A stretch of 64,000 bases of DNA from Candidatus Woesearchaeota archaeon (lineage in GTDB: Archaea > Nanobdellota > Nanobdellia > Woesearchaeales > GW2011-AR4), in the NCBI GenBank assembly GCA_016180235.1, contig JACPBQ010000004.1, forward strand, positions 239,674-303,673, in the 5' to 3' direction. Position numbers and translations under genes: made by a program. This document shows, one piece after another, positions 8,498 to 27,632 of this stretch; position 1 is the first letter of the stretch; each line of letters begins with the position of its first letter. Below the pieces are notes generated by a model that was not told the origin of the DNA, searched no databases, and saw nothing but the letters and a program-made list of their open reading frames with translations.

Positions 8498-10183
8498 TTA
8501 CACTATAGCACTATCAACTTTTTCCACATAGCCTGCAACCTGGACATTGCACCCAAAGCCGTTGTATGCCCTCAAGGCCCTGTCCCAAGGATCAGTATAT
8601 GATTTGTATTTTGCATTGTTTGCATTGTCTTTGCAGAACTCGTCAACTGCATTATTGTACCTTTCAGTATTGAAACCGTAAGCATTGTAATTCTGTTGCA
8701 ATATCTTTAAGCCTGATTTTATGTTGCAGTCAAGGTCATAGACTGTTTCAACTTCTTTGCAGGCAAATAATCCCAGCCTTTGCGCTCCTGGAGTGAATAA
8801 GTCAGAATGCGCATCTGTGTTTATCTGCATAACTCCAAAATCTTTTCCATTTGTCAGGACATTTTGGCTGTTTGCAGTTCCGCAATTTAATGACTTGTCA
8901 TTGCAATGCTGGAAATTTGATTCGGTTTTTGCCAATTTCAATGCCAAATCCACATTTGTAAATCCAATCTCACTTGCTACAAGCTTTATCCTTTCCTTTA
9001 TATCGGAAGAGCCTAAAACGTCATTTCCTGCGCTTCCTTCCAGTATGTCATTTCCCGAGGATTCCTTAAAATCCAAAGCAAACTTATAGACAACGGGCCT
9101 TAGTTTTGTTGTCTTGTCTTTTTCGTCATAAGCATAGATATTGCTTTTAATGCTCTGGACGCAGAACCTGAACTTTGTCTGGGGCTTTGGCTCGCATGTT
9201 TTCCCGGTCCAATAGCCGCTTATTATGACTTTGCCATCATTGTCCTTGTGCACAAAGCTTGCATCTCCTATATAGACATAATTGTCAGCAAGATTGGCAT
9301 TTTTGATTGTTTGCCTCAATTCTGGGTTAATTTTTGAGGCAATTAAAATATCATTACCGTTTTGGGTAACATCATAGCTTCCCTTTATTGATGGATTGTT
9401 TTTTGTGCATATGCATGAATTATCATCTGAATATGAGCAGCTTTCAATATATTCAGAGACTTTGTAGAAATTCTCGTTTTCGTCAGGATCACATTTGTCA
9501 AGAAGCCTGAAATCATCGTCATTAAAGAAAGAAGCTTTGTTGGAGGCTGTGCAGAATGCCTTGTTTTCGGAATCCTTGCAAAAGCCGAAAAGCCTCTGGG
9601 CTTTCTCCTGTATTTTCTTATGCTCGTCAAGGTCATATCCTATGCTAGTGTAAAATGACGGGTCTACATAAGCGACTGCCTCGCTGCCCTTGTCTTCAAG
9701 TATCCTGAATGGAATCCTGCCAGTTGATTTGGCTATAAACCCATTATCTATTGAAACATCAAAATCAATATTAGAGAAGTCTATATCTCCTATTTTGCTT
9801 TTCTTCAGGCCGGAATACGATTCCTGGAAAAGATTTATCAGCTCCTGCCTTAAGTCAAAGCTGCCAATACAGTCCTGGCCTGGCATCATTATGATGCTAT
9901 ACTCAAGATAGCTGCCGCATTTGGTATTGGATGCAAAAATGCCGCTCCCTGCAACAGAAGCAAGAGACTGCTCAAATATCCGCTCGAGCATCGTGCTTAT
10001 TACCTGGTCCTTGTTTCTTGTTTCCTCAAGGGATTTTGCAAGTTTTGCAGGAAATTCCCCAACTTCAGGGATAGATGCCTGCACAGGATAGTAGAATAAT
10101 ATTATACCTATGCTGGCTATGGTAGCTATTGCAAGAGCATACCAATTTATTCCTGTCGAGCCTTTGCTGCCAAGTCCTCTCAT
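8498..10183 (-). CDS. Membrane-anchored lysozyme-like (SLT) transglycosylase of the surface cluster
   Basis: 561 residues. One N-terminal membrane segment (about 14-34, LAIATIASIGIILFYY), then a Cys-rich extracellular region, then a C-terminal lysozyme-like fold from about 405: KTESNFQHC with the candidate catalytic Glu, DFGVMQINTDAH, CNIKSGLKIL and ALRAYNGFGC. This is the goose-type/SLT transglycosylase motif order. Such enzymes cut peptidoglycan glycan strands, which archaea lack, so the target may be bacterial walls, a host coat polymer, or a relic binding role. Last gene of a tight operon; it overlaps the previous gene by 4 bases. Confidence 0.75.
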   Translation of the reverse strand: MRGLGSKGSTGINWYALAIATIASIGIILFYYPVQASIPEVGEFPAKLAKSLEETRNKDQVISTMLERIFEQSLASVAGSGIFASNTKCGSYLEYSIIMMPGQDCIGSFDLRQELINLFQESYSGLKKSKIGDIDFSNIDFDVSIDNGFIAKSTGRIPFRILEDKGSEAVAYVDPSFYTSIGYDLDEHKKIQEKAQRLFGFCKDSENKAFCTASNKASFFNDDDFRLLDKCDPDENENFYKVSEYIESCSYSDDNSCICTKNNPSIKGSYDVTQNGNDILIASKINPELRQTIKNANLADNYVYIGDASFVHKDNDGKVIISGYWTGKTCEPKPQTKFRFCVQSIKSNIYAYDEKDKTTKLRPVVYKFALDFKESSGNDILEGSAGNDVLGSSDIKERIKLVASEIGFTNVDLALKLAKTESNFQHCNDKSLNCGTANSQNVLTNGKDFGVMQINTDAHSDLFTPGAQRLGLFACKEVETVYDLDCNIKSGLKILQQNYNAYGFNTERYNNAVDEFCKDNANNAKYKSYTDPWDRALRAYNGFGCNVQVAGYVEKVDSAIV

Positions 10184-10641
10184 GCGTACACCTCAAGGCT
10201 TACAGTGAGAAATTTTATGTTAGCAGCCTCAAAGATAGGAACCTGGGCTTCGCTTTTTGCTTCCGGATTCTGGGCATTTTCAGATTTGGATGAATAGAGT
10301 ATGCTCTTGCTTTCATCGGATATTATGATGCTCCATCTGCTGTATTTTTGGCTGAAAAAATCCTTTGAAATCCTGCCTATCCCGGAAAAGTCATTCGCTG
10401 CATAAGCCTCCTGCATCATGCCGTACATGTCCTTGCCGCTTCCAACCGGCATTTCCAGAAAATTATTAAGGTGTTTTGCAGCGGAAATGCCGCGCTCAAT
10501 GCTTTTTTCCTGCTCATTTGATTCCTTTGCATTCGAGATATTGCAGCCATAGAAAAGGAGTATCACTATAACCATCAACATGACATAACTAAGCATGCCC
10601 AGCAGCTCTTCTGCAGGTATTGCCGCCTTTTTGCTAAGCAT
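10180..10641 (-). CDS. Single-pass membrane protein of the surface cluster
   Basis: 153 residues: a short basic start, one membrane segment (about 13-32, LGMLSYVMLMVIVILLFYGC), then a soluble extracellular domain with no recognised family. It overlaps its upstream neighbour by 8 bases and the lysozyme-like gene by 4. The layout (short N-in tail, one helix, globular C-terminal part) is that of pilin-like or pseudopilin-like subunits, but no class III signal cleavage motif is seen. Confidence 0.7.
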   Translation of the reverse strand: MLSKKAAIPAEELLGMLSYVMLMVIVILLFYGCNISNAKESNEQEKSIERGISAAKHLNNFLEMPVGSGKDMYGMMQEAYAANDFSGIGRISKDFFSQKYSRWSIIISDESKSILYSSKSENAQNPEAKSEAQVPIFEAANIKFLTVSLEVYA

Positions 10642-11110
10642 TTTTTATTTTCACCCTTAATTTTGCCTGATATATGCTGCTGTCCTTCAACACAAGGACA
10701 TCTTCTACGCTTTCCCTGAACTGCGGGCTTTCAACCCAGTTCCTTGTCTTTACAGAATTTGCGCTTGACTCTGCATCTGGCACTTCCAGCGCCGCATAGA
10801 ATGAATATTTCACCCTGCTTTCAGGAAAGCATTTGTCCATCTGCTCCTGAGTAAACCTTTCAAAGTCTATAGTCCCTGCATGGATCTTTCCTGCCTTGTC
10901 CTTGTAGGCAAAACATTCTCCAGAAGAAGTTATCCTGGCTATAAGCGTTGACTCTTCAAATCCTTCAGGGATGCCAGCATTTTCATTCACGAAATATAAC
11001 TGCATGGAAGCTATAACTGCCGCAGTAACGCCTACTGCCATTATGTAGAATATCCAAAAAATCACGTTAGTCGTCCATTCCATTCCTTTCTTATGCCTTG
11101 GCCTTATCAT
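10634..11110 (-). CDS. Single-pass membrane protein of the surface cluster
   Basis: 158 residues with a membrane segment at about 12-38 (TTNVIFWIFYIMAVGVTAAVI), then an extracellular domain with two Cys (GECFAY, DKCFPES). It shows no known domain. It overlaps both neighbours in the operon (20 bases upstream, 8 downstream). Confidence 0.7.
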   Translation of the reverse strand: MIRPRHKKGMEWTTNVIFWIFYIMAVGVTAAVIASMQLYFVNENAGIPEGFEESTLIARITSSGECFAYKDKAGKIHAGTIDFERFTQEQMDKCFPESRVKYSFYAALEVPDAESSANSVKTRNWVESPQFRESVEDVLVLKDSSIYQAKLRVKIKNA

Positions 11111-11525
11111 TTTCTTTAGTTATGGAAAATATCCCTTCTTTTTTTTCTATGACCAGTATTTTCGGGCTGTCAACCACAAAATTAATGCGACTTTGGCAGG
11201 AGAATGGGTAAGATGCGATAGTGGGGTCTTTGCCGCTGATTTTACTGCCGTCAAGACGCACATAATCCCGATCATACACATTTACCCGGTTGTCAGAAAT
11301 CTCAAGTATAAACCCTTCCAGGCCGATGATAAGCCTTTCTTTCATATCATACGGGCTGGAGCACATCACGTTGAGGTTAAGGGCTATGTCCCTTGCAGAG
11401 GCTGTTTTCAATGCCACAACGCCGGTCGCCTTGTCCTTCGCAACTTTAGGCAGCATCAATGCCACTACTACTGCCAATATTACAATTATTACAGATATAG
11501 TTATAAGATCCCCTCTTTTTTTCAT
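11091..11525 (-). CDS. Pilin-like single-pass membrane protein, first gene of its transcript
   Basis: 144 residues from the ATG at 11525: KKRGDLITISVIIVILAVVV, a basic tail followed at once by a membrane helix. The short charged tail (RG just before the hydrophobic run) is like the class III signals cut by archaeal prepilin peptidases. The rest is a small beta-rich domain with two Cys. A TTG at 11534 would add three residues, but a TATA box (about 11544-11555) lies 28 bases before the ATG, so a leaderless start at 11525 is more likely. Confidence 0.7.
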   Translation of the reverse strand: MKKRGDLITISVIIVILAVVVALMLPKVAKDKATGVVALKTASARDIALNLNVMCSSPYDMKERLIIGLEGFILEISDNRVNVYDRDYVRLDGSKISGKDPTIASYPFSCQSRINFVVDSPKILVIEKKEGIFSITKENDKAKA

Positions 11526-11598
11526 AGCATTCAATTTAGAATGTCAATATATAAGCTTTATTTATATTATTTTTCTTATACAGGCTGATTCAGCATAT

Positions 11599-12564
11599 TT
11601 ACTTGGCCGTTTGCAATGATGCTATCTGCTTCTCGATAGCATCGCTCTTCAGCTCCGGAAAAATGCTTATCATTTGATTATAGGCTTCTGAAACCTTTTG
11701 CTGCTGCTTTTTCAGCATATATATCTGGACAAGCCTTTGCATCGATGCCTTTGCATCCTCGGTATTCTGGCCCGAGGAGATTATTTCAGTGTATTTTTCT
11801 ATTGCCTTGTCTATGTTCTTCTCTTCCAGCTTCTTTGCCTCGTCAAATGCAGTTATAACACACCTGTCAATGCCCAAAGTGCCCTGGTTGAATCCTAGCA
11901 GGTCATAATTGCATATCCCGATATTGCTGCCTCTCCTCTCAGCCACAAAGTTTACGCTTTCATCGGTGTAAAGCTTAAGGCCGTTTGCGCCTGAGACGCC
12001 TCTTGCGTACAAAAAGCCATTTTTCCAGTATTCGGTGCCGCCGCCAATGGTTGTGACCCATATATCAATTCCTGGATAGAGCTTTATTGGAGTGGTCTGA
12101 GGCACATCACCATTCAGGACCTTGCATTGGATTTCAGAGCATTTTCCTGATTTTATGCTCTTGTCATTTTCGACAGCATCATAAAGAATAAGATTGTTGC
12201 ACAGGCAGATGCATGACCTTCCGGAGCATTCTGGATTAGATGGCCTGTCAAAAAACACAGTGGGCCTATTTTGTATGCCTACATAGCAGTTGAAGCACTC
12301 ATATCTGCCGGCATCCTTGGAAAACCCTATTATTGCTGACTTGTCCCTCATTGTCAACAGCAGCGTTTCCCTTCCCTGGCCCATATTGTTAATGCTGCTG
12401 GCAAAATTCTCAAATGACTCCAAGTATTTTCTATCCGGATTGAAGATTGCTGCTTCAAGCCTGTTCCAAAAAGGCAAGACTATGAGAAAAACTATGGCTA
12501 TTGTGATTATAATCCTCAACAAGGCTTCCGGAACCGCCAAGACTGATTTTTTGTCTTTGAGCAT
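11599..12564 (-). CDS. Membrane-anchored Cys-rich protein with C-terminal TPR-like helices
   Basis: 321 residues: one membrane segment (about 14-30, LLRIIITIAIVFLIVLPFW), a Cys-rich middle (YECFNCYV, CSGRSCICLC) and a helical C-terminal part (about 240-318, AFDEAKKLEEKNIDKAIEKY) that looks like two TPR repeats. The Cys pairs suggest disulfides outside the cell. It shares one base with the end of the 104-residue gene. Function not recognised; TPR-like helices often bind partner proteins. Confidence 0.7.
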   Translation of the reverse strand: MLKDKKSVLAVPEALLRIIITIAIVFLIVLPFWNRLEAAIFNPDRKYLESFENFASSINNMGQGRETLLLTMRDKSAIIGFSKDAGRYECFNCYVGIQNRPTVFFDRPSNPECSGRSCICLCNNLILYDAVENDKSIKSGKCSEIQCKVLNGDVPQTTPIKLYPGIDIWVTTIGGGTEYWKNGFLYARGVSGANGLKLYTDESVNFVAERRGSNIGICNYDLLGFNQGTLGIDRCVITAFDEAKKLEEKNIDKAIEKYTEIISSGQNTEDAKASMQRLVQIYMLKKQQQKVSEAYNQMISIFPELKSDAIEKQIASLQTAK

Positions 12565-12878
12565 TATTTCTTCTCATAAGCTTTCTTTATCGTTTCCCTG
12601 CACTGAGTTTCCCTTTCCACTGCTGCCTGCTCTTTTGTCTCGGAATCTGAATTGCAGCCTTCGTACTTGTCGCTTCCCTGCACGCAGGCGCATTTGTCGA
12701 AATAGTCAGCTATGCCATCGTTATCATAATCTTTTGCCGAGCTTAGGAAATCTGAGGCCTGGGCTGTCCCTTTCCCGAGAAGCTTTGGCACAACAATCAC
12801 AAGAACAAGAAATACAAGCACTGCTACACCTAACCATACCAAAGTGTCAGTAAGTGCAAACGATTTTTTTGATTTCAT
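12564..12878 (-). CDS. Small membrane protein with a calcium-binding thrombospondin-3-like motif
   Basis: 104 residues: membrane segment at about 12-34 (VWLGVAVLVFLVLVIVVP) and then DYDNDGIADYFDKC, a DxDxDG calcium loop of the thrombospondin type 3 kind, the same motif as in the giant adhesin. Shared calcium motifs suggest the two may act in one surface structure (inference). Confidence 0.7.
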   Translation of the reverse strand: MKSKKSFALTDTLVWLGVAVLVFLVLVIVVPKLLGKGTAQASDFLSSAKDYDNDGIADYFDKCACVQGSDKYEGCNSDSETKEQAAVERETQCRETIKKAYEKK

Positions 12879-12920
12879 GGTTTTTGACTCTTTTGCGATT
12901 ATATAAATTTTTTTATGCTA

Positions 12921-13613
12921 TCAGCATAATTTTGCTTCCAAAGATTTTATGCAGTCTTTATCAATCCCATCCCTTCCATCATACCTTGGCGGATTGCATT
13001 GGCCAAAGTCTGTGAAGCCGTCATCATAAATCCTTATTACACATATGCCTTTTTCATCCCTTAGTGCATATCTGGAGTATTTGCCTTTTTCAAGCACGAT
13101 GGTGCCTGATGTTCTTGACATATCCTTGCAGTACTTCTCCTGGCCCCATACAAAGCATCCATGCAGGTTTACCGCTGCGCTGCCTGAGACCTCGCATGGC
13201 TTCAAGCCCTGGACAGAGGATGTCTTTAGCGCAGGAGTAAGCGCAGCTTTGTCATTTGTCTCTATATTTTTTGCCTCTATCTGCACCTTGTCGTTATAGA
13301 TTGCAATGCTGAACTTATTGCTGTCAGGAATTTCACCAAGGTCAACAATGCAATTCTTCTTCTGGCTTTGCTGCCCTATTTGCGAGAGCATTTTGTCAGA
13401 ATAATCCTGAACTTCCTGAGGTATTTGCACCTGCCCCTGGAATTCCGGCTTCTTTTGCTCGGGCAAAAACCCAAAGCCGAAATTAAGCGCCTGTTCCCTC
13501 ACCTTGGCAAACAGCTGGCTTGGCGCAAAAATCAATGCAATTATGACAATAACTACAAGTATTCCTGCGGCCCAACCTACAAATTCCGTTATTGATGCTG
13601 CCTTCCTGTCCAT
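12921..13613 (-). CDS. Single-pass membrane protein with Cys-containing extracellular domain
   Basis: 230 residues: membrane segment at about 11-31 (FVGWAAGILVVIVIIALIF), a linker rich in Gln and Pro, then a domain with seven Cys (such as KNCIVDLG, KPCEVSG, HGCFVWG, KDCIKS). No family recognised. The ATG lies 2 bases after the stop of the 47-residue gene. Confidence 0.7.
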   Translation of the reverse strand: MDRKAASITEFVGWAAGILVVIVIIALIFAPSQLFAKVREQALNFGFGFLPEQKKPEFQGQVQIPQEVQDYSDKMLSQIGQQSQKKNCIVDLGEIPDSNKFSIAIYNDKVQIEAKNIETNDKAALTPALKTSSVQGLKPCEVSGSAAVNLHGCFVWGQEKYCKDMSRTSGTIVLEKGKYSRYALRDEKGICVIRIYDDGFTDFGQCNPPRYDGRDGIDKDCIKSLEAKLC

Positions 13614-13615
13614 TT

Positions 13616-13759
13616 TCAGCCGAATATCTTGTCAAGATTGAAATTTATTAGCTGGCCAGACTGCCAGTAGTATGCTGCCATAACGCCAAGAAGAAGGAGC
13701 AGTATTATTATCATCAATATAGTGCTTCTTCCTATTTCCTCTGCTTTTTTATGCTTCAT
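13616..13759 (-). CDS. 47-residue single-pass membrane protein
   Basis: The ATG at 13759 overlaps the stop of the 409-residue gene by 4 bases and its stop lies 2 bases before the next start, so it is part of the operon. It has a charged start (KHKKAEEIGR), one helix (STILMIIILLLLLGVMAAYY) and a 15-residue outer tail. It is of the size of minor subunits or assembly helpers in pilus-like machines. Confidence 0.7.
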   Translation of the reverse strand: MKHKKAEEIGRSTILMIIILLLLLGVMAAYYWQSGQLINFNLDKIFG

Positions 13760-14985
13760 GATTGTCCTGAGTACTGTATTGTGCATCCAAGCTGCCTTGC
13801 ATCGTGCTCTGTTGATACCAGCATGAAATTAGGCACGTCTATTGTTATTCCAGATGTTACGAATTCTGCGCCACTTTTTAATAATCTGTCTATTATGCCA
13901 AATTCGTTTGCAACGACGGCTGTGCCGGCAACACCACCAATAGTTCCGAGCCCTAAAAATTTTAATATGGTTCCACCTGCTGCTGCGGCCGGGGCACCAA
14001 CAAAATAAAGCACGACAACGCCTGCTGCTGTTCCTATTGCATAGCCGCCAATGGCAGCATAGCATCCTGTATTGGTGACTATCCCTCCTTCCTTGGTGCA
14101 GAACTGGCTGCTTGGGCTTAAGAATGATATTGCATATCTTTCTCCCGGAACAAAATTCATGTCACTGGCTTCCTGGCCGCCAGGAGACATGAAGAATATA
14201 TCCCCGCCTCTTGAGCCGTATTCCCTTATATATCTCGTAAAGGAATATACAGAATCATCCCTTACGTAGCATGTCTGCCCTCTTCCGGGGCATGACCATT
14301 CATTGTATATTCTCGGGTATCCGCTTGGGCTTCCAGAATCTGAGCATATTCCTCCCTTATTCCCGCACTCGTCCCTTAGGTCCCTAACGCAGCACTTGTA
14401 ATTTGCTCCTGGCGATATTTTCTTTGAGCTTAATTCTTTTTCATCATTACTGCATGCTGTCCTCCAAAAGCCGCCGTAAGGCGCGCATTGGTCGCTTTTA
14501 TCAGCGGCAAAATAAGGCTCTGACATCGAATCTGAGAGAGACTTGAATGTGACGCTGCTTGCGTCCTTGCTTACCCTGAAAGTGTAGCACGTAAAGCATC
14601 CCTCGGAGAACGGATATTTTTCAAAGGTGTTTTTTTGCGAGCCGTCAAGCCACATATGCCAGCAACTCTTTATCATGTCCCTGATCTCAGCTTCAGCGCC
14701 CTTGCTATTCTGAGGATATTTTCCGTTCGGGACCTGCATTTTCCCCTCGGTCTTGTCTATTGTGCTGCATATCTGCGGGCCTGACACGATATTAGAGGTC
14801 TTTTCCTTGAGGCCGAATTTTATTTCATTGGATATCCTGCATAAGTCAACCTGCAGCTTCTCATCAACCTTGGAAGCCTGGTTTTTCACAGCTACGAGAA
14901 TTATGCTGCCTGAGAGCAGAAGCAGTATAAGCCCGACTATTATGCCGAAGCCCGAGGCCGTAAAGCCTTTTTTGTTTATTGCCAT
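13756..14985 (-). CDS. Cys-rich membrane protein of the surface cluster with two hydrophobic regions
   Basis: 409 residues. The N-terminal start NKKGFTASGFGIIVGLILLL carries a KKGF class-III-like site before the first membrane helix. The extracellular part has about 14 Cys (CFTCYTF, KCCVRDL, CGNKGGICSD). A second hydrophobic Gly/Ala-rich hairpin lies at about 305-365 (YAIGTAAGVVVLYFVGAP), which may insert into a membrane. I do not recognise a family. It overlaps the 47-residue gene by 4 bases. Confidence 0.7.
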   Translation of the reverse strand: MAINKKGFTASGFGIIVGLILLLLSGSIILVAVKNQASKVDEKLQVDLCRISNEIKFGLKEKTSNIVSGPQICSTIDKTEGKMQVPNGKYPQNSKGAEAEIRDMIKSCWHMWLDGSQKNTFEKYPFSEGCFTCYTFRVSKDASSVTFKSLSDSMSEPYFAADKSDQCAPYGGFWRTACSNDEKELSSKKISPGANYKCCVRDLRDECGNKGGICSDSGSPSGYPRIYNEWSCPGRGQTCYVRDDSVYSFTRYIREYGSRGGDIFFMSPGGQEASDMNFVPGERYAISFLSPSSQFCTKEGGIVTNTGCYAAIGGYAIGTAAGVVVLYFVGAPAAAAGGTILKFLGLGTIGGVAGTAVVANEFGIIDRLLKSGAEFVTSGITIDVPNFMLVSTEHDARQLGCTIQYSGQS

Positions 14986-14987
14986 TT

Positions 14988-15146
14988 TCAGGAGAATCTG
15001 CTAATCATCAGTATCACGGCCCATATTACGAGGAATCCTGCACCAAGTGTCAAAATAATCTTCATAATCGGCTCAGAAAGGTGCATATCCTGCGATTTTT
15101 TGTTCTTAAGCCAGCGAAATATCCGGATTTTTGATGTGCCTTTCAT
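14988..15146 (-). CDS. 52-residue single-pass membrane protein
   Basis: The ATG at 15146 overlaps the stop of the 89-residue gene by 4 bases, and its stop is 2 bases before the next ATG. A basic cytoplasmic half (MKGTSKIRIFRWLKNKKSQD) is followed by one membrane helix (IILTLGAGFLVIWAVILMI). Positional coupling is the main evidence; no family recognised. Confidence 0.65.
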   Translation of the reverse strand: MKGTSKIRIFRWLKNKKSQDMHLSEPIMKIILTLGAGFLVIWAVILMISRFS

Positions 15147-15412
15147 TTTTTTTCTGGATCAGAAATGCTTATGCAGCATACTGTGTTTTTCTCTGCGCAT
15201 TCTGCTACGCTGACCTTTATCTCATTATCGAGGCATCCCAGAGCCACGCTTTTGCATTCCCCGCCCCTGGCTTTGCAGTCCTCAAAGACCTTCACAGATT
15301 TTCCGCTGCTCTGCGTGAATATTGCTATCAGCACTATAAGCACAACGAGGGCCAGTATGGCCATGACCATAACGCTAAAAGACAAACCTTCGGCTTTCCT
15401 CTTTTCAATCAT
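15143..15412 (-). CDS. Archaeal pilin-like protein
   Basis: 89 residues. KRKAEG followed by LSFSVMVMAILALVVLIVLI is a class III signal peptide: basic tail, Gly before the cut, then a hydrophobic helix, as recognised by prepilin peptidases (PibD/EppA). The outer part has six Cys, including NTVCC. It shares the helix style with the two tandem pilins upstream and the Cys-pair ending of the first of them. Confidence 0.75.
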   Translation of the reverse strand: MIEKRKAEGLSFSVMVMAILALVVLIVLIAIFTQSSGKSVKVFEDCKARGGECKSVALGCLDNEIKVSVAECAEKNTVCCISISDPEKK

Positions 15413-15484
15413 ACATCAATTCCTGAAGCAACGGCTATATAAATATTTGGGAAAATATATTTAATTTATTCAAAGAAAATTTTA

Positions 15485-15769
15485 CTATTGTTGACAACAA
15501 CAAACTGTGTTTGGTTGAAGATCTTGAAATTCACCCGGTATGTATTTTCTGTTTCCAATAGCAGTTTTGCATCCATCAACTGTGTCCCTTAAACCAAATT
15601 GCATATTAACAGCTTTACAGCTCCCCTCACAAGTCACAGTTCCAGAAAGCCCTTTGCTAAACAATCCAAGCCTGCCTGTAAAAATAGCTATCAAAACAAC
15701 CAAGACAATAAGTGCAATTGCAGCTATAATAATCGTGTTGATAGAAAGACCCTGGGATTTACCGTTCAT
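15485..15769 (-). CDS. Archaeal pilin-like protein, tandem copy 1
   Basis: 94 residues: GKSQG, then LSINTIIIAAIALIVLVVLI, a class III signal peptide and pilin helix. The first 43 or so residues are nearly the same as in the next gene, including a 77-base stretch (15678-15754) of identical DNA, while the outer domains differ. The C-terminal part has six Cys, ending in CCC near the terminus. Expected to be a pilus subunit after prepilin processing. Confidence 0.8.
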   Translation of the reverse strand: MNGKSQGLSINTIIIAAIALIVLVVLIAIFTGRLGLFSKGLSGTVTCEGSCKAVNMQFGLRDTVDGCKTAIGNRKYIPGEFQDLQPNTVCCCQQ

Positions 15770-15790
15770 TTTGGATTAATAAAAAGTAGG

Positions 15791-16048
15791 CTATCCTTTA
15801 GGCTTACAATAGCACTGGTTTCCATTGCTATCTAATGCTCCGCGTACAAGGTTAGCAGCAGCATTATTGGGGTCTACATCCATATTCCTAGCTTCGCATA
15901 TTTGGCTGCAAGTAGTTGCTTCTCCAAGCCCTTTGCTAAACAATCCCAATCTTCCAGTAAAAATAGCTATCAAAACAACCAAGACAATAAGTGCAATTGC
16001 AGCTATAATAATCGTGTTGATAGAAAGACCCTGCGCTTTTCTGTTCAT
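15791..16048 (-). CDS. Archaeal pilin-like protein, tandem copy 2
   Basis: 85 residues from the ATG at 16048, which has GAGG at a 7-base spacing; the ATG at 16054 is too close to it. The start RKAQG, LSINTIIIAAIALIVLVVLI is a class III signal plus pilin helix. It carries four Cys in the outer part (CSQIC, CYC). The 77 bases at 15957-16033 are identical to 15678-15754 in the neighbour, so the pair are recent duplicates or are kept alike by gene conversion. Confidence 0.8.
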   Translation of the reverse strand: MNRKAQGLSINTIIIAAIALIVLVVLIAIFTGRLGLFSKGLGEATTCSQICEARNMDVDPNNAAANLVRGALDSNGNQCYCKPKG

Positions 16049-16143
16049 ATTCATGCCTCTTTTACGGAATAGTGTTTCTCTGCAATAAGTCATATATAAA
16101 TATTTTGATTTTAGTTTTGGCATATTAGCTATTTGGTGATAAA

Positions 16144-16207: not shown

Positions 16208-16242
16208 AAAAAATGATATTGAGGCTTGTTTTTAGTTATTAT

Positions 16243-16731
16243 TTACCCGCAAACATCCAACCGGACGAACAAAGTCCCTGAGCCTGTAGGAATCGGAAAG
16301 GTCTTTGATTTCTTGGATGCGGGGCATGGGCTGCCAAGCGTAAAAATCGGGCTCTCTTCCTGCTGGAAAGCCTTAAACTCGTAATCAAGGCTCCATGCAT
16401 CCAGAGTCTTGTTAAAGACCTCTTTTGCCGTATCCCGCGCGTAATCGCAGGAAACCTGACCATTCTGGCAGAAGATGCTTTTGCTGTGGCCGCAGTCCTG
16501 CAAGAGCTCCGTCATAGTCAATCCATTGCAGTCTTTGCTAGTCGATTTCAGGAAAGTATTGAGCATATTTGAGGCTATTTCTGCCTGGGTAAACTGCTTC
16601 TTGTAGTCTACAGTCTCCTTTGCAAGCATAAACCTGATAACGAAAGTCATGCCTATTACCAGCAGCACAACGACTATTGCCAACCCGATGATTTCCGTCT
16701 GTGACTTCTTCCTGAATTTAGCCATTGTCAT
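16243..16731 (-). CDS. Pilin-like membrane protein with Cys-containing outer domain
   Basis: 162 residues: KFRKKSQTEIIGLAIVVVLL is a basic tail followed by a Gln-Thr-Glu before the membrane helix, close to the Glu+5 pattern of type IV pilins. The outer domain has seven Cys (KDCNGL, QDCGHS, FCQNGQVSCDY). It overlaps the upstream gene by 4 bases. Confidence 0.75.
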   Translation of the reverse strand: MTMAKFRKKSQTEIIGLAIVVVLLVIGMTFVIRFMLAKETVDYKKQFTQAEIASNMLNTFLKSTSKDCNGLTMTELLQDCGHSKSIFCQNGQVSCDYARDTAKEVFNKTLDAWSLDYEFKAFQQEESPIFTLGSPCPASKKSKTFPIPTGSGTLFVRLDVCG

Positions 16732-19076: not shown

Positions 19077-22000
19077 CTTTTATTGGATTTGCTGCTGGTT
19101 TTTCTTTTTTTCGCTATTTCCCTAAGTTTTTTTGTTGTTTCTCTGCTGCCTGCAGGCCTGCTCCGTGCTTTCTCAGCTTCGGCTCTTTTTGATATAAGCT
19201 TTAATCTGGCAAAAATATCTTCCTTTTCCTGTCTTGGAGATTGTTTCTGCGCTGCAGTTTCACTTGATTTTGGAATCTGTTTTTCTGCAGGCTGCTGGAC
19301 TTTGCCTCCAAAAGCCCCGAATAATTTTCCCCGCGCACCTTTCCTTTCCTCTTCCTTTTTAATGAAAATTTCCTGAGGCTTTGCTTTTTTCTCTACGGGC
19401 TTTTGGACAGGCCTTCTTGCAACAGATATTGGGCGCTGCTGCATTGCCCGGCCTATAGGAGGCATCGGTCTGCTGATGTAGTTAGTATAATAGTAATAAG
19501 CACCGTAGGCAGCTCCGCCCAATATAATAACAGTTATAATCACCCATAATATTGCCCCTATTATTCCTTTTGGCTTGCTTAAAGGATCAAGAGGATCTGT
19601 TCCTTTGTCTATCTCTTTTTTGTCGCTGGCTCCGTCACCATCCGTATCCTTGTTATTGGGATCGGTGCTGTAGGTGTATTCATGCAAATTTATCAGGCCG
19701 TCATTGTCAGAGTCTATTTCGGCGTCTGACGGGTCATTAGGATCAAGGCCCTGCAGCAGCTCCCATTGATCTGGTATCCCGTCACCATCTGTGTCTTTTT
19801 CCCCTTCAGCCTGCTCAGAGCATTTTCCCAAAGCGCATGACAATCCGGATTTGCAATCTGTGTTTGCGTTGCAATTCTTTCCAAGGCTGCATTTTTGAGG
19901 ACATGCGCCTCCGCAGTCTATATCAGTCTCTGTTCCTGTCAACAAGCCATCAATGCATGCCTCAGAGTCAGAGCATATGCCAAATGAGCACGAGCCTGAA
20001 GAGCAATCTGAGTCAAGGTTGCATTTCCTGCTGTTCTCGCATTTATTGCAATTATTTCCTCCGCAGTCTATATCGGGCTCATCCTGATTTTTCACATTAT
20101 CGCTGCATGTTGCTGCAGAGCAAATATTTGCCGAGCTGCAGAATCCTGATGAGCAGTCTATGTTTTCCCTGCAAATCTTGCCTTCTATGCACAAATCACA
20201 TGGACCTCCACAATCAATATCAGATTCCTGCGGGTCTTTTATGCTATTTGAGCAGTCTGTTGGCTTCAGGCTTGGGTCTATTGTTATGCCGTCGCTTTCC
20301 ATTGCATTGCTCAGAAGCCCGACAATGTTCCTTGCCCTCACCCTGAAGAAATACTTTGAGCCAGTGGATAGACCAAGGCTTGAATTTTTCTTGGATATCC
20401 ATATCCATTCATTTTCTATAAAGCTTGTCGTCCAGTTTATTACCGTATTTAAAGTCCCAAATTCCTCGAGAGTATAATCATATGAGCTTACTTTAGTCTC
20501 ATTGTCCCTTCCAAGCCATTTTGCCCTTAACCTGTCCGTCTGCCATGTAAATTCTGGATTATCGGGCAAAGTGCTTGTATCATCAACGAAGACCATCAAA
20601 GGGGCAGTAGTGTCTATTGTGAACTCTATCCTCAATGGATCTGACCATTTCTGCAGGAACTGGTCCTTGCAGATGACATAGTAGACATACTGGCCCGGAG
20701 ACAGCGCCAGCTCCTTCGTATGGGAATAGGACGGAAGGCCCATCAGCACCCCTTCACTAACTTTCGGATCGCTGCTGCTGTACTTGCACTGCGATTTCTT
20801 GTTTGTCTCTACAGCAAGGATGGCAGTTGATGTGTTGATATATTGAGGGGTATGGCTTATTAGTTTAATCGGAAGAGTTATGTCGGAGCTGAAAGTTATC
20901 TGCTTTACATCAGAAACCAATCCGGATTTGGATTTACAGGCCACAAAATAAGAATAAGATCTGTCTTCCTGGACTGTTATTTCCTGCATGTTTACCCTGC
21001 TGAATGAATTGTTGCCAAAGCCCCTGAATTCACTTTCCATAAGGCTGAAATCGTTGGCATTTGCGCTGTATTTGCATATTGACTCCTTGTCTGCCTCAAC
21101 CTTTAATGTCGTTGTCCTTGGAATTTCAACTATAGGATTCGGGAATGCAAACGCGTTGTTTATTACCGGCTTCTCTGAATCCACGCTTAAGTCAAATACT
21201 GCTATTGTCTGCCCCTGAAGCGGATCATTGCATCTCACATACAGCTTGTGCACATTCCTGTCCCCTGAAGGTATGGCATTGAATGAGGACAATTTGTGCT
21301 CTGTGCTGCCTGATACATCAAACCCTGCCATAAAGTTGAATTCAAGGTTCGAGTCAAGGCTGTACCTGCATGCTGCGTCATTATCTGTCCCGACAACAAG
21401 GTCAAAGACGAAAAGAGGCGATACGCCGAAAGGAGGGCTTATTATAGATATTGCCAGCGGGTTTGAATTGACTATGAATCCTGATTCTGCCGTCATTGTG
21501 TTGCCTGCAAAATCCCGGGCTGATATTGCGATTTTCTTGTTTCCGTCTGAAAGGGCTATTGCCGCATTGTACTCTATGCTGTCTGCCGTGGAGAAGTTGC
21601 CTGTAAAATCTTTGCCGCTTATTTTTATGCTGTCAATGCTGACCTTTTTGTTGAATCTTATTTTTATAGCGACAGGAGAGGAATTCACTACCGTATTTTG
21701 TGCCGGGATTATAGAGATTAGTGCGGGTACTGAGTCGTCAACAACTATATCAGCCTTAAAGACGCTGCTCATGAAAATTCCCTTTTCATTCTTGGCATTG
21801 AGCTCGAATGTATATTGCCCGGGGTTTATCTGCCTCTGGAATGTCAATTCCGTGGATTTCCCGAGCTGGTTTGAAAAATCAGGGATTATCGCTATTTCCG
21901 TGCCTTTCAGCAAAAGCCTCGCACTTGTCACTATGGCGTTCTCAAAAAATTCCACTTTTATGACTGGATTTTTTGAGTTGGTGTAATAAACATTGTCCAC

Positions 22001-24106
22001 AATTTTTCCATTGGTTATATTCAGGCGGAAGACTACAGGTCCTGACGAGTCTGTCTGGGCAGCTATCTCTAATATCTTAACTTTGCCTATATTTTTTGCC
22101 GGATCCTGCGAGTAATACCTTAAGACATTTGTTCCTTCGGCAAGGCCCAATATCTTTTCTCCTGTCAATGAATCAAAAAGGTTGAGGTTGCTTATTATCA
22201 GGCTGTAGCTGTTTGTGAATTTCTGGTAAGGATGCCCGGAAGCTCCGCATGGCTCTTTGCAAAGATATGTCCTGTAGTCATTTGTTGTCCTCCTCGTGAA
22301 GCTTCCTTTTCCGCTTGCCTTGTCCTGTATCTGTATCGAGAGTGACTTGTACAGGCCGCGGTCTATTATCGGGACTATCGTGGTGTTAGGGGCAAAGACA
22401 TCCTGCTCGCATTCATCTGTGCTGCAGTCAGCCGCATTATCGTTGTCTGCATTTTTTTTGCATGCCCCGCTGAATTTCTGGCATATTTTAAGGCCGCATT
22501 TATTTGCAGCACTGTTCGTTACATCATTGAATTCGTTATACTGCAGCCTTGCGCTGGTGCAATCATCGGGAAGGAGGTCTGTGCATATCACATTATTGCA
22601 GTTCAATGCCTTTTCGCCGTCGTAATAGCACAGGTTGTCCTTATTTGAAATAAGGCTTGCTTTTTCTTCTGTGCATTGCTCGAAGACCATGCTCGTGGCT
22701 TTGGAGCTGCCAAGTTCTTCTGTGCCGGGGCTGTCACACCACTTGCAGTTGTCGGCATTCCTGTCGATGCAAACCCCCGTCCCAAGCTCGCCGGATATTG
22801 GCTTCCATTCGCAGCTTCCGGCATTGCAGTTGTTTGACTCGCAGCTTTCCCTGGACTTATAGTCATAGCATGACATTCCCTGGTTGCATGCAAAGCACGA
22901 GTCTATTGTTGATATTGAGCGGTCATAGAAGCAGTATTTGCCGCTCTCGCATGTGCTCCTTGTGAAAAACAAGCCAAATAAATTTGACTGGTCCGGCGTG
23001 CAGGCTGATTTTTCAGCGCAGATAGGGTCATTATTCGATATAACACATGCCTGGCTGCTGCTGCAGACTGTCCCTTCTTCCTTCAATATGTTGGCATCAT
23101 TGCATAAAAATGCCCTGTTAAGCCTATTGGAGAATGTGCTCTTTACATTCTGCAGGAAATTTTGGGCAGAAAAGCCTGCAAAATTCCTTATGAGATAGTC
23201 CTTATACTGGTTGTAATAAAATTCGCTTATGCAGAAATTATTGCTGTCCAGCTTGTTCCAGCACTCAAGATTTCCAAGAAAGGCTGTTGCTGTGGCTGTG
23301 GGCTTTGCCGTCTGGATGCTGAACTTCGATTCGATCTTGTATGTGTAATCTGTATCAAACTTTAATGATTCTGCCTCATCAGCAAATATATTTTGGGGAG
23401 ATGTTCCGATAAGCGAAAAATCAGCACAATTTTTTCCTGTGCACCTGTAAATATCATTTGATATGAGGCTTGAAATGCATTCATTTTCCCATTTTAATTC
23501 TATTTTTTTCTGCCCCTTTACTGGCAGCGCCTTAAAGTTCGTTATTTTAGGGGCATAGTTTATGTTGTCACAGTTTGCCCCTGAGGATGCAAGGCATACC
23601 CCATTGCTTTCGGAAATGTCAAAAAGGCTGGTGCATCCGGAATCTACCGGAAAATCGCGGCATCCGTTGCCGTCATTGTCTATGCCATCATTGCATTGGG
23701 GGACATTGCATACTGCATTACATTCGGTCTCTCCGGGATGGAAAACCAGGCCGGTGCCTGAGCATTGGGACTGGGTCTTTATCTCTCCACTTATGTCTGA
23801 GCAGCAGCATCCCTGCCTGCATTGATTCACTGCATCGCATGACTGTCCTGAAAAAAAGAAATTTGCCTGGCATTCATTAAAATTCTGCGGACCTGAAGAT
23901 GTTGTATAATAACCAGGATTCGCGCTTTCAGGCTTTGGGCAGCATTCCGAAAGTGTTGAAAGCCTTTCTGTCGAGCATGCTAAGGCAGAAGCGCCTGGGT
24001 TTAGGCAGCATCCTACATTAGAATCCTGCTGCGCAGGGGCAAGGATAGGAAAAACTGCAAGCAAAAACGTAAAAAGCAAAATTTTGGCGTATTGCATGAT
24101 CTTCAT
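19073..24106 (-). CDS. Giant Cys-rich surface adhesin with thrombospondin-3 repeats and C-terminal anchor
   Basis: 1677 residues. A signal peptide (1-25, ending APAQQ) leads into a Cys-rich region, a fibronectin-III-like segment (about 185-270), further Cys-rich modules and Ig-like repeats (about 570-1180). A second fibronectin-III-like segment (1185-1295) is followed by three Cys modules (1310-1437) built on DIDCGG ... DCSSGFC. Next come thrombospondin type 3 calcium loops (DTDGDGIPD, DSDNDGL, DTDGDGASD; 1438-1510), one membrane helix (about 1514-1538) and a 130-residue basic tail. This is the layout of a large surface adhesin held in the membrane with a cytoplasmic foot. It is coupled by 4-base overlaps on both sides. 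Target unknown; host attachment is a reasonable guess for a DPANN cell. Confidence 0.85.
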   Translation of the reverse strand: MKIMQYAKILLFTFLLAVFPILAPAQQDSNVGCCLNPGASALACSTERLSTLSECCPKPESANPGYYTTSSGPQNFNECQANFFFSGQSCDAVNQCRQGCCCSDISGEIKTQSQCSGTGLVFHPGETECNAVCNVPQCNDGIDNDGNGCRDFPVDSGCTSLFDISESNGVCLASSGANCDNINYAPKITNFKALPVKGQKKIELKWENECISSLISNDIYRCTGKNCADFSLIGTSPQNIFADEAESLKFDTDYTYKIESKFSIQTAKPTATATAFLGNLECWNKLDSNNFCISEFYYNQYKDYLIRNFAGFSAQNFLQNVKSTFSNRLNRAFLCNDANILKEEGTVCSSSQACVISNNDPICAEKSACTPDQSNLFGLFFTRSTCESGKYCFYDRSISTIDSCFACNQGMSCYDYKSRESCESNNCNAGSCEWKPISGELGTGVCIDRNADNCKWCDSPGTEELGSSKATSMVFEQCTEEKASLISNKDNLCYYDGEKALNCNNVICTDLLPDDCTSARLQYNEFNDVTNSAANKCGLKICQKFSGACKKNADNDNAADCSTDECEQDVFAPNTTIVPIIDRGLYKSLSIQIQDKASGKGSFTRRTTNDYRTYLCKEPCGASGHPYQKFTNSYSLIISNLNLFDSLTGEKILGLAEGTNVLRYYSQDPAKNIGKVKILEIAAQTDSSGPVVFRLNITNGKIVDNVYYTNSKNPVIKVEFFENAIVTSARLLLKGTEIAIIPDFSNQLGKSTELTFQRQINPGQYTFELNAKNEKGIFMSSVFKADIVVDDSVPALISIIPAQNTVVNSSPVAIKIRFNKKVSIDSIKISGKDFTGNFSTADSIEYNAAIALSDGNKKIAISARDFAGNTMTAESGFIVNSNPLAISIISPPFGVSPLFVFDLVVGTDNDAACRYSLDSNLEFNFMAGFDVSGSTEHKLSSFNAIPSGDRNVHKLYVRCNDPLQGQTIAVFDLSVDSEKPVINNAFAFPNPIVEIPRTTTLKVEADKESICKYSANANDFSLMESEFRGFGNNSFSRVNMQEITVQEDRSYSYFVACKSKSGLVSDVKQITFSSDITLPIKLISHTPQYINTSTAILAVETNKKSQCKYSSSDPKVSEGVLMGLPSYSHTKELALSPGQYVYYVICKDQFLQKWSDPLRIEFTIDTTAPLMVFVDDTSTLPDNPEFTWQTDRLRAKWLGRDNETKVSSYDYTLEEFGTLNTVINWTTSFIENEWIWISKKNSSLGLSTGSKYFFRVRARNIVGLLSNAMESDGITIDPSLKPTDCSNSIKDPQESDIDCGGPCDLCIEGKICRENIDCSSGFCSSANICSAATCSDNVKNQDEPDIDCGGNNCNKCENSRKCNLDSDCSSGSCSFGICSDSEACIDGLLTGTETDIDCGGACPQKCSLGKNCNANTDCKSGLSCALGKCSEQAEGEKDTDGDGIPDQWELLQGLDPNDPSDAEIDSDNDGLINLHEYTYSTDPNNKDTDGDGASDKKEIDKGTDPLDPLSKPKGIIGAILWVIITVIILGGAAYGAYYYYTNYISRPMPPIGRAMQQRPISVARRPVQKPVEKKAKPQEIFIKKEEERKGARGKLFGAFGGKVQQPAEKQIPKSSETAAQKQSPRQEKEDIFARLKLISKRAEAEKARSRPAGSRETTKKLREIAKKRKTSSKSNKR

Positions 24107-25365
24107 TCCCTTATCACAGTAATTATCTGATAATCCTCCAGGCTTCCATCTGTGACTCCAATTTTGAACTCCATCCTAGGAAACAATAAAGCCACCGGAG
24201 GCTTTGGGGTTATGAAAAATGATTCATTGGTTATCAGGTCTTCATCAGGATCTAGGGCAATAAGCTCCTGGGCGCCTAATAAGTCTTCTTCTGTTATTAT
24301 TGTGAATTCACCTGTTTCGGGATTTGTTGCCGGCATGGAAATCTGCTCTGGAGACAGATAAAACATTGCGGGGTTCCTGTTCTTTCTTGCAAAATAGTAG
24401 TTATACGGCAGATTGTCAAGAACAGATTCCCTGTCAGTTATTATTAGTATATCATCCTTATTGTAAATATCCCTCTTTATGTCTATCTCAAAACCTTCCA
24501 TCGTGCTGTTCATGATATTAAATTTGACACTGCCTATATCAGACTCTATAAGGCTGTTGACGAAGCGATGCATTTTTCCAAGCCTTATTTTATGCCTTGC
24601 AAAAAAATTATTCAGGCTTGTCTTTTCCCCGCTGACGAGATTTTCAACGACAATATCGTAATCCATCCTGAAAACCACGTCATTCTCATTTATATCGGCC
24701 TTTACCTCCTTGTTCCCTTTTGCCACCAGAATTCCCTGGGCCCCGAATACTGAAAAATCAAGGCATCTGTCTATATTGCTTTCTGTGTAGGATATAAGCT
24801 GCTCCTGCATGGAATTCGGGCCGAATGACTCATTTAGCGGAGGGAAATTGCTCAATCCAAATGCGCTCCTTGCTTCAAAGCTTTCTGCAGCCTTGCTTTC
24901 GTCGTCATAAGGGAAGGTTTTCCAGGGATAGCCGGGTATTGCAGGCATATATCTCCCGTTAGGGAATCTTGGCCTTAATATATTATAAACAACTTTTTCG
25001 TTTTCATTATTTATGAAGAAAATGCCTTCGTCAGTATCCTGGTAGTCTATCAATCTCCCGCCCTGGCTCCTAAAGATATAGCCCCCTTGGCTGCCAAGCA
25101 GGCTCAGGCCGTCTTTTGTTGTTGCGGAAAGGCATTCTGTTATGAAGTTATTCACAGGCTGCACATCAAAGGCTGCCTCTTTCACGTCAATTGTCTCCTG
25201 CTTCGATACTTTTTTGGCAGCATACCTGCTCACAAGGATAATTGACACAGCTACCATGACAAGGACTAGGCCTATTATCAGGAATACAGCGACCTGGGAT
25301 TTCTTCAAATATTTTGAATTTCTGGATTGCCGAAAAACTGGGGTTTTATATTTATATTTCATCAA
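24103..25365 (-). CDS. Pilin-like membrane protein of the QGG family, paralogue of 31253-32089
   Basis: 420 residues: KKSQVAVFLIIGLVLVMVAV, a pilin-like start and helix, then an outer domain. The segment FITECLSATTKDGLSLLGSQGG is shared in pattern with the 278-residue protein at 31253-32089 (FVEGCL ... LIQGG), so the two are paralogues. I recall this layout as common in DPANN archaea but without a named function. It sits 23 bases after the poly-proline protein gene and overlaps the adhesin gene by 4. Confidence 0.75.
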   Translation of the reverse strand: MMKYKYKTPVFRQSRNSKYLKKSQVAVFLIIGLVLVMVAVSIILVSRYAAKKVSKQETIDVKEAAFDVQPVNNFITECLSATTKDGLSLLGSQGGYIFRSQGGRLIDYQDTDEGIFFINNENEKVVYNILRPRFPNGRYMPAIPGYPWKTFPYDDESKAAESFEARSAFGLSNFPPLNESFGPNSMQEQLISYTESNIDRCLDFSVFGAQGILVAKGNKEVKADINENDVVFRMDYDIVVENLVSGEKTSLNNFFARHKIRLGKMHRFVNSLIESDIGSVKFNIMNSTMEGFEIDIKRDIYNKDDILIITDRESVLDNLPYNYYFARKNRNPAMFYLSPEQISMPATNPETGEFTIITEEDLLGAQELIALDPDEDLITNESFFITPKPPVALLFPRMEFKIGVTDGSLEDYQIITVIRE

Positions 25366-25388
25366 GCCTCTTTTTTGAAAATTACTTG

Positions 25389-27632
25389 CTAGCTTATCCT
25401 CAGCTTCGAGGTAAGGTCATTCCATAAAACATCCGGATTTATCTTTGTGAACTGCGTTCCCTGGGCAAGGACATAGAATGTGCTGCCGTCCCTGCTGCAT
25501 TTTATCCCTGAGCCTGCATCCCTGTTCTTCTCATTGAACTGGTCTGTGAACCTGCATATGTCGGTATCAAAATTCCTGTATTCGATGATAAGGTTCTTGA
25601 AGCCCCTGCCTTCCACGCTTCCCCTTATCTCCTTGTTGCCGTTCTTGGCAACGTAAAGCTTGCTGAAGCTGTTCAGGCTGTTCAGATAGGAGGTATCGAA
25701 AGGCTCCTGTATGGTATTCCTTATCCTGCTTTTCATAGAATCGAAAGGATTCTTTATGAAGCTGATGAAAGTATCAACGAAATTTGTGGTGCCTATTGAA
25801 AACGACTGCTTGCTGTAGACGAGGCTGTTGAGCTTCTGGTTGTACCATGCCTTGCTGCTGCCGTCGCATGCGTGATATTGCCCGTCATTTATCAGGGCAG
25901 CGTTGCAGCTGTCAATGCCTATTGTCTGCAGGAATGGCCTTATGTCGGCAACAGGCTTATTAAGAGAAGTTCCGATGATTACCTTGTCATTAAATATCAG
26001 GGTGCAGAAATTGTTTGTGTTCTCCGGATTGACAAGGCTTCCGACCAGCTGTCCCTGAACCATGTAATTCAGATTGTTGAGCGTGTTTTCCGCAGTGTCG
26101 CAGAAAACAACAAAATCATCTGTTTTTGCCATATCAATCAGCTGCAGAGCTACAAATTTTGTCCTTGAGGTCCATTGGCCGCTTTCGCAATAATTGTCTT
26201 TGATGAATTGCTCGTTTGTTATGCAGACAGGATTTTTATCCGGCTTGTTGTTATCATCCGGGTTTCCTGCAGCATTGACAAAGCACTGCCCCTGCTCCGG
26301 GCAAAATCCTCCTGTGTCTCCCAATGGATTGAATTTCAGGGAAGCGTTGATCCAGTTTCCATCCACGCACCTGAAGCCATTAACTGCCGGGGCATTTGGG
26401 CTGTTCCTCTGGTTCTGGACGCATTTGGCACCGTCCCAGCAGCTTGCTGCAGAGCAACATTCCGACTGCTGCTGGACACCCTGGAAAGATTGGGGGACTG
26501 TGCTTATATGAGACCTGTCCTGGCCTCCGGCAAGCTCCCATTTGTTATTGATGGAGCAGAAATAAAATTTTCCAGGGTCCTGGAAGCAGTATTCCTTGTT
26601 TTGCACCAATGGCTGATTTGTGTGCGTATCTTTAATATTCAAAATAGAAGCGTCATTTACATTGCATCCGTAAAAAACCCCGTTGAAATTTGCGACATTC
26701 CCGATGTTTGGGGCTGTGTCTCCTGTCAATACTCTTTGCTTGTTCCAGCAGCCCCCTTTTGTGCCGGCTGCATCAACATAATATTCACCAGGGTCGTCTG
26801 CCTCGCTGCAGCACAATGTACCAGTCCATGTTAATCCTGCGCCCTGGCATGATGCCTGGTCTTTTGTGTCCAGATCTGTTGTAAAAGTGCTGTCCGAGGC
26901 GCAGTAATATGTTGTCTGCCCTGATTTTACAGATCCTCCTGATGAAAGCCTTTTCCCGTCTGTATTTGAGTTGCAGCCACTGGAGCCGCAGCATTCAGCC
27001 CATGAGCCTTTCCCAGCACTTGCGTTGCAAAGATATTGATGCCCATTAACATTTTTTATTTGAAAGGAATCACAAAGCAGCCAGTCTTTCCCGTCTGACA
27101 ATCTTTCCTCGTCATTGCAGCCTACATGGACTATATCTCCTGGATTTGCTTCTGCCGAAAACCAGCTTCCTATCCTTAAATTAGCGCTCATAGAGCATAT
27201 TTGCCGGTCTATTACCTCTCCAAAGCGCTTTTCCTCTGCTATAAGGCCGCAATCCGCTTTGTCATCACCGCAGCATCCTATGCTTTCTGTCCATGAGGTT
27301 CCGCTTATGCAGCTGCATGCTCCTGATGAGCTGTCCGCGTCTGTCTGCTTGATAGCACTCACAAAACCTGCCTGGCCGCATGTACAGCCACCGCCAATGC
27401 ATGCATTCTGGGGCAGATAATAGCTGAAAGTCTCTGCAGACAAAGAACCCGGATCTGATTTTATATCCCCATCCTGATAGCAGCCTGCTGTCTGGTAGCC
27501 GCAAGGAGGAGGTGGAGGAGGTGGAGGAGGCGGTGGATTTTTTTTCCCTGCCTCTACAATGATCGCTATTGAAAGAAACAAAGTTATGCAAAACAGCAAA
27601 ACATAGACCGGTTTATACCGTTTATACCTCAT
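25389..27632 (-). CDS. Secreted Cys-rich protein with an 11-proline tract
   Basis: 747 residues. A signal peptide (VLLFCITLFLSIAIIVEAG) is followed by 11 prolines in a row and then a very Cys-rich region (about 60-470, such as GGCTCGQAG, ESIGCCGDD, SECCSAASCW) and a less Cys-rich end (about 480-747). There is no C-terminal anchor, so it is released or bound to partners. AGAGG lies 6 bases before the ATG. The proline run would need translation factor aIF5A. First gene of the long leftward transcript. Confidence 0.8.
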   Translation of the reverse strand: MRYKRYKPVYVLLFCITLFLSIAIIVEAGKKNPPPPPPPPPPPCGYQTAGCYQDGDIKSDPGSLSAETFSYYLPQNACIGGGCTCGQAGFVSAIKQTDADSSSGACSCISGTSWTESIGCCGDDKADCGLIAEEKRFGEVIDRQICSMSANLRIGSWFSAEANPGDIVHVGCNDEERLSDGKDWLLCDSFQIKNVNGHQYLCNASAGKGSWAECCGSSGCNSNTDGKRLSSGGSVKSGQTTYYCASDSTFTTDLDTKDQASCQGAGLTWTGTLCCSEADDPGEYYVDAAGTKGGCWNKQRVLTGDTAPNIGNVANFNGVFYGCNVNDASILNIKDTHTNQPLVQNKEYCFQDPGKFYFCSINNKWELAGGQDRSHISTVPQSFQGVQQQSECCSAASCWDGAKCVQNQRNSPNAPAVNGFRCVDGNWINASLKFNPLGDTGGFCPEQGQCFVNAAGNPDDNNKPDKNPVCITNEQFIKDNYCESGQWTSRTKFVALQLIDMAKTDDFVVFCDTAENTLNNLNYMVQGQLVGSLVNPENTNNFCTLIFNDKVIIGTSLNKPVADIRPFLQTIGIDSCNAALINDGQYHACDGSSKAWYNQKLNSLVYSKQSFSIGTTNFVDTFISFIKNPFDSMKSRIRNTIQEPFDTSYLNSLNSFSKLYVAKNGNKEIRGSVEGRGFKNLIIEYRNFDTDICRFTDQFNEKNRDAGSGIKCSRDGSTFYVLAQGTQFTKINPDVLWNDLTSKLRIS

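Follow-up and report, generated by a model that had tools for sequence, protein, structure and literature searches.

The 20 genes on the minus strand between positions 8498 and 27632 of a 64,000-nucleotide stretch of a Candidatus Woesearchaeota archaeon (assembly GCA_016180235.1, contig JACPBQ010000004.1, positions 239,674 to 303,673; the whole stretch is hereafter the window) are best explained, and we think probably correctly so, as encoding most subunits of a candidate type IV filament system, archaeal and divergent, which would display enzymes that cut bacterial walls. This reading is carried by class III prepilin signals in most of the encoded proteins, by a gene order that recurs across Woesearchaeota, by a secretion ATPase and a TadC-like gene that stand, elsewhere in the class, at the head of an operon holding part of these genes, and by a last-encoded subunit, t, whose C-terminal murein-enzyme domain is swapped among relatives. 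The genome to which the window belongs measures 1.04 Mb and is 80.75% complete, and the genomes with which it was compared are mostly metagenome-assembled genomes.

A conserved cluster of prepilin-like genes

Class III prepilin signals were scored by a strict rule, under which glycine, alanine or serine had to stand right after the last basic residue preceding the helix, and were found in 16 of the 18 N-anchored window proteins. An earlier note, made from the letters of the window, had recognised at least three clear signals, which are present and were an undercount. Control N-anchored proteins were drawn from stretches of the window's genome: 5/27 scored when known pilin-like genes were left out (Fisher p = 3e-6), and 15/37 when the genome's other pilin-like genes were kept (p = 6e-4). 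Because the strict rule was picked after the sequences had been seen, conservation among orthologues weighs more than these comparisons. Among motif-bearing orthologues, position +1 is glutamine in 65/67 for f, 58/62 for g, 29/29 for h, 39/50 for d and 20/21 for b, and glutamate stands mostly at +6 in the orthologues of f and at +3 in those of g. The signal is weaker in n and r, for which the counts are listed below.

The genes of the cluster and its two conserved neighbours are as follows.

a, 25389..27632, minus strand: secreted Cys-rich protein of 747 residues, Sec-type signal, long proline run; orthologues head the cluster
b, 24103..25362, minus strand: prepilin-like (KKS/QVAVF, predicted cleavage at the slash), core module; directly after the ATPase gene in relative G120
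c, 19073..24106, minus strand: giant surface protein of 1677 residues, Sec-type signal, TSP3 and immunoglobulin (Ig)-like repeats
d, 18609..19076, minus strand: prepilin-like, core module
e, 17503..18528, minus strand: prepilin-like, 56-residue N-terminal helix, new outer fold, core module
f, 16728..17210, minus strand: prepilin-like, 57-residue N-terminal helix, alpha/beta outer domain, core module
g, 16243..16731, minus strand: prepilin-like (KKS/QTE), core module
h, 15791..16048, minus strand: small pilin-like (RKA/QGLS); start inferred from the motif
i, 15485..15769, minus strand: small pilin-like, paralogue of h
j, 15143..15412, minus strand: small pilin-like, paralogue of h
k, 14988..15146, minus strand: membrane protein of 52 residues; no orthologue recognised
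l, 13756..14985, minus strand: prepilin-like; in other orders, the first subunit gene behind the motor genes
m, 13616..13759, minus strand: membrane protein of 47 residues, internal ATG at 13759; no orthologue recognised
n, 12921..13613, minus strand: prepilin-like; signal in 8/15 orthologues
o, 12564..12878, minus strand: small prepilin-like
p, 11599..12564, minus strand: prepilin-like
q, 11091..11525, minus strand: prepilin-like; start inferred
r, 10634..11110, minus strand: prepilin-like; signal in 10/23 orthologues
s, 10180..10641, minus strand: prepilin-like
t, 8498..10183, minus strand: conserved prepilin-like N-domain and C-terminal SLT (lysozyme-like) domain, swapped among relatives
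OB-fold/RPA-like gene, 7336..8466, minus strand: conserved neighbour of t, probably outside the machine
small membrane protein gene, 6686..7147, minus strand: conserved neighbour of t, probably outside the machine

Much of the anatomy in the earlier note was borne out. The leftward cluster of about 20 genes that it had placed at 8498-27632 is real, with all 20 minus-strand reading frames (a to t) confirmed, mostly small and with a single N-terminal helix; its many 4-base overlaps occur at six junctions (b/c, c/d, f/g, j/k, s/t and, once the start of m is corrected, l/m), the remaining junctions being short gaps or overlaps of at most 292 bases. The two tiny membrane proteins of 47 and 52 residues exist, the secreted poly-proline protein is a, and the 1677-residue protein carries, besides its Sec-type signal and repeats, one C-terminal membrane helix followed by a basic tail. 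Cysteine-containing outer domains had been ascribed to almost every gene, and cysteine occurs in 18 of the 20 proteins. Searches of the cluster proteins against Pfam and NCBIfam recognised almost nothing beyond the SLT domain of t and the TSP3 and Ig-like repeats of c, and a PADLOC run on five of the proteins gave no match.

Conservation of gene order, which the earlier note had set beforehand as a test, was found on dozens of Woesearchaeota contigs, where orthologues keep the order a-b-c-d-e-f-g-(h/i/j)-l-n-o-p-q-r-s-t, and this recurrence argues that the cluster is not a product of chance. When gene e was used as bait in named genomes, 80 loci were retrieved, mostly from Woesearchaeota and with the same order wherever the contig was long enough; a search with b, its many paralogues included, gave matches in 53 of 59 relatives. 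Gene f, the marker of the core, is present in 118 of the 145 genomes sampled from the order, among them 85 of the 101 of high quality, and in 192 of 237 genomes sampled across the phylum, other orders of the class among them. The special machine of one symbiotic cell envisaged earlier is thus too narrow a description. Three loci of other orders have the core b to g standing alone at the f locus, directly followed by an S-layer-like gene (L252, 12125-14410; L254, 10008-12413; L255, 10999-13251); d was unrecognised in one of these loci, and d-e and f-g lie apart in another. Elsewhere in the window's own genome (contig C5, 156000-190000; L072 and L073), three larger paralogues of b (629-706 residues) with class III signals adjoin giant secreted proteins of 1047 and 2281 residues, possibly a further surface-protein locus.

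AlphaFold models of e and f (predicted local distance difference test, pLDDT, 92.6 and 94.9) have confident outer domains and an unbroken N-terminal helix of ~56 residues, spanning residues 5-60 in e and 4-60 in f, so that both would have a pilin-like layout as modelled. Neither outer domain significantly matched a PDB fold, and e matched none of the viral models. A reading of the outer domains as known enzymes or pilins gained no sequence match and, for e and f, no fold match; unrelated enzymes were the outcome that the earlier note had named as counting against its own reading, and the two modelled domains resemble no known enzyme.

Motor genes and their linkage to the cluster

The window was scanned for the T2SSE ATPase and the T2SSF platform, and no match was found inside it. 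The earlier statement that the cluster has no motor is therefore true of the window and wrong for the system, as the search for motor genes elsewhere, which the same note had proposed, located two sets in the genome on contigs other than the cluster's (C2 and C5), and the operon of other orders begins with an ATPase and TadC. An organism without a motor is ruled out by the same genes. The C2 set comprises an ATPase and two TadC-like genes scoring above the T2SSF cut-off, beside canonical pilins. The C5 set comprises a 763-residue ATPase and a 723-residue TadC-like partner that has no Pfam match and is so labelled for its layout and for where it sits, next to the ATPase. The C5 ATPase is similar to archaeal GspE2 and CpaF; the GspE2 secretion ATPase of A. 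fulgidus is its nearest match, and GspE2 (7.6e-31) is nearer than FlaI (3e-16), the ATPase type of the archaellum. An ATPase match on contig C1 was discarded, being a PIN-domain fusion, as judged from its sequence, and not a secretion ATPase. The genome also encodes two A24 prepilin peptidases (C5 and C9), neither linked to the cluster. Several orthologues of the C5 ATPase (in G042, G072, G086, G096, G136 and G175, also G308) are frames of ~1260-1970 residues in which the match is broken near query residue 500, the pattern expected for inteins.

The C5-type ATPase occurs in 139 of 145 genomes of the order, and since both it and the cluster are near-universal, their co-occurrence is uninformative as proof of a link. 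Within Woesearchaeota, the ATPase gene of G120 overlaps b by ATGA and is followed by c-d-e-f-g, and a TadC gene in L119 lies 43 bases before c-d-e-f-g; by a rough estimate, random placement would yield 0.1-0.5 motor-core adjacencies among the ~150 genomes looked at, and these two linkages alone are only suggestive. The arrangement in other orders of the class is strong evidence for the motor link. There, 13 genomes have the t N-domain 6-13 kb downstream of a C5-type ATPase on the same contig and strand, and 10/10 of the loci fetched from them have the order ATPase-TadC-l-...-r-s-t; n/o, h/j, p and q stand where they normally do, though missing or unrecognised in some loci. The l-t part of the window therefore corresponds to the subunit genes of an operon that, in those orders, has its motor as well. 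The OB-fold gene comes next in 8 of the ten loci and the small membrane protein gene in 7, as after the window's t; neither of these genes (6686-8466 in the window) looks pilus-related, yet both trail t. In none of the loci fetched did ATPase or TadC genes of the C2 type adjoin the cluster. Synteny in relatives thus suggests which motor would serve the window's cluster, and we predict that the cluster very probably forms a type IV filament system using this C5-type ATPase/TadC motor. The pilus-like character claimed earlier is upheld by the class III signals, the conserved operon, the long N-terminal helices, and the syntenic ATPase and TadC of relatives.

The cluster may be placed as a variant of archaeal type IV filament systems, with a filament that is predicted. 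It shares with archaeal type IV pili (PMC4858521; PMC6393860) class III prepilins, a secretion ATPase, a TadC-like platform, and an A24 peptidase. Unlike them, it comprises >15 different subunits arranged in two modules, its outer domains have no known relatives, one of its surface proteins is a giant anchored in the membrane, and one subunit carries murein enzymes that are exchanged among relatives. Archaeal pilus motors have been predicted to serve distantly encoded pilin sets (Makarova et al. 2016 PMC4858521; PMC6393860). Earlier predictions also include a nanoarchaeal ATPase without known pilins (PMC4858521, PMC6393860) and diverse DPANN pilins beside TadC in dark-matter islands (Makarova et al. 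2019 PMC6393860, Figure 2A; PMC4858521).

Murein enzymes on the last-encoded subunit

The N-domain of t was found in 219 of 288 genomes of the order and bears a class III signal in 18 of 23 orthologues, and the domain behind it varies. Among 20 t members scanned, the window's included, the C-terminal domains were VanY (8), M15 (7), Amidase_2 (2), SLT (2), and M23 (1). A set of 59 members from sampled genomes, which includes the window's t and has some members in common with the first, gave SLT (11), M23 (10), M15 (7), VanY (6), M74 (3), Amidase_2, Phage_lysozyme2, and SLT_2 (2 each), and Amidase_3, NlpC/P60, M15_4, 3D, YkuD, CHAP, and SLT_4 (one each), with few other matches (fn3, 2; PGA_cap, TPM, and DUF5715, one each); these families partly overlap (VanY/M15; SLT variants), so the counts do not sum to proteins. 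The enzyme classes were called by Pfam, simple sequence patterns being far less sensitive, and the murein families score strongly in t orthologues. In the window's t, TESNF, GVMQIN, and YNGFG resemble SLT motifs and look intact, as judged by eye.

Many unrelated enzyme classes with one substrate at one position point to bacterial murein, which, on the strength of these domain assignments, we regard with considerable confidence as the target of t. The pseudomurein wall that some methanogens have contains no muramic acid and no D-amino acids, and the enzyme classes of t are therefore not expected to act there. Penicillin-binding transpeptidases were found in only 1/39 relatives, so murein of their own is not expected in these cells; the lone bearer is a complete Woesearchaeota-like genome (G044:C1:1062871-1063686). 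Gene c was considered as a carrier of murein enzymes and rejected, as three large relatives that were scanned contain Ig- and TSP3-type domains only. A second SLT-domain protein (849-residue frame) is encoded in the window's genome at C9:315683-315907, ~12 kb past the window's right end.

Large lytic-transglycosylase-like proteins and 'vampiristic' genes have been described in Woesearchaeota and read as signs of bacterial contact (Castelle et al. 2021 PMC8204110; Vigneron et al. 2022 PMC9723730); the main texts of both papers contain no pili or pilins, and report no prepilin-like anchor and no swapping of enzymes within a pilus operon. Archaeal peptidoglycan hydrolases, prominent in Nanoarchaeota, kill bacteria (PMC12352652), but that survey required a wall-binding domain and its main text is without pili, whereas the enzyme of t is joined to a prepilin-like anchor. 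All three studies had proposed murein enzymes and bacterial partners for Woesearchaeota on genomic grounds. Vampirococcus lugosii, an ultrasmall predatory bacterium of the Candidate Phyla Radiation, combines pili, giant surface proteins, and wall enzymes (PMC8080830), the last described as separate proteins and not as pilus subunits. No paper joining the DPANN pilus prediction with the murein enzymes of Woesearchaeota was found in the open-licence literature.

Proposed mechanism and competing explanations

In the mechanism we propose, an A24 peptidase would trim the prepilins, and the ATPase and TadC would extrude d-e-f-g together with the small pilins h/i/j through the surface layer as a filament, short or long. 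Adhesion would come from the giant protein c, perhaps joined by a and b, and the murein-cutting enzyme displayed on t would breach the wall of a bacterium, whether partner or prey. We lean slightly toward use of the t enzyme against living bacteria. The envelope-penetrating function suggested in the earlier note finds support in the interchangeable murein hydrolases on t, yet these point to bacterial partners, whereas the hosts of cultivated DPANN are archaea; its interpretation is, overall, partly supported.

Several observations weigh against a filament that displays wall-cutting enzymes. The outer domains have no likeness to known pilins, by sequence or, in the modelled e and f, by fold; the motor genes are unlinked to the cluster in the window's genome, and the second motor, on C2 and with its own pilins, could also serve it. 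The SLT match of the window's t is barely above the cut-off, and a search of this domain against PDB sequences returned no relative. The t-like proteins of other orders are mostly ~250-270 residues long, with little room for an enzyme domain, from which it follows that the cutting of walls was not an ancestral function. Genes outside the cluster encode murein enzymes too (83 of 145 genomes have SLT matches, a count that takes in t), and such enzymes are a wider trait of the lineage.

One alternative is a general adhesion or twitching pilus whose t enzymes would only digest wall fragments as food or remove debris around the cell, with living bacteria not attacked. Such a pilus would agree with the near-universal core, the t proteins without enzyme in other orders, and the murein enzymes found elsewhere in these genomes, but an enzyme tethered to a pilus subunit and often swapped for another class fits varied live walls better than debris, and we judge this alternative unlikely, if a serious contender. 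A pseudopilus like that of type II secretion, acting as a short piston that exports proteins with c and a as cargo or anchors and no surface filament, is rather unlikely. The kinship of the C5 ATPase with the A. fulgidus enzyme speaks for it, as do the many different prepilin-like genes, which leave few candidates for a single abundant pilin, and d-e-f-g could by analogy parallel a minor-pilin tip complex; h, i, and j, however, small pilin-like genes in several copies, may encode major subunits, and monoderm archaea have no outer membrane to cross. That there is no filament at all, only a static membrane-anchored complex on the S-layer with signals that merely resemble class III, would suit the S-layer-like gene adjoining the core b-g in three other-order loci and the outer domains that match no pilin fold, but the operon shared with ATPase and TadC and the conserved +1 glutamine make it improbable. 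Clearance of the archaeon's own wall for pilus exit by the t enzyme, for which LytF in Streptococcus sanguinis, a walled bacterium, provides a precedent (PMC13192262), is very improbable given the near-absence of transpeptidases among relatives.

Beyond the preferred reading of a filament system displaying wall-cutting enzymes, we tentatively raise a broader idea, somewhat less likely than not: that the cluster is a lineage-wide machine for opening walls, a type IV filament in which the last-encoded subunit serves as a modular adaptor for interchangeable murein hydrolases, with which most Woesearchaeota attach to and breach living bacteria, their usual hosts or prey then being bacteria and not archaea. 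For Woesearchaeota, a very large archaeal group about whose hosts and nutrition little has been established, the analysis groups many unannotated DPANN genes into one putative machine and proposes candidate subunits for a secretion ATPase that occurs throughout the class, and a near-universal pilus-type system with bacterial-wall enzymes would make the question of life on bacteria testable, by biochemistry and imaging, with named proteins.

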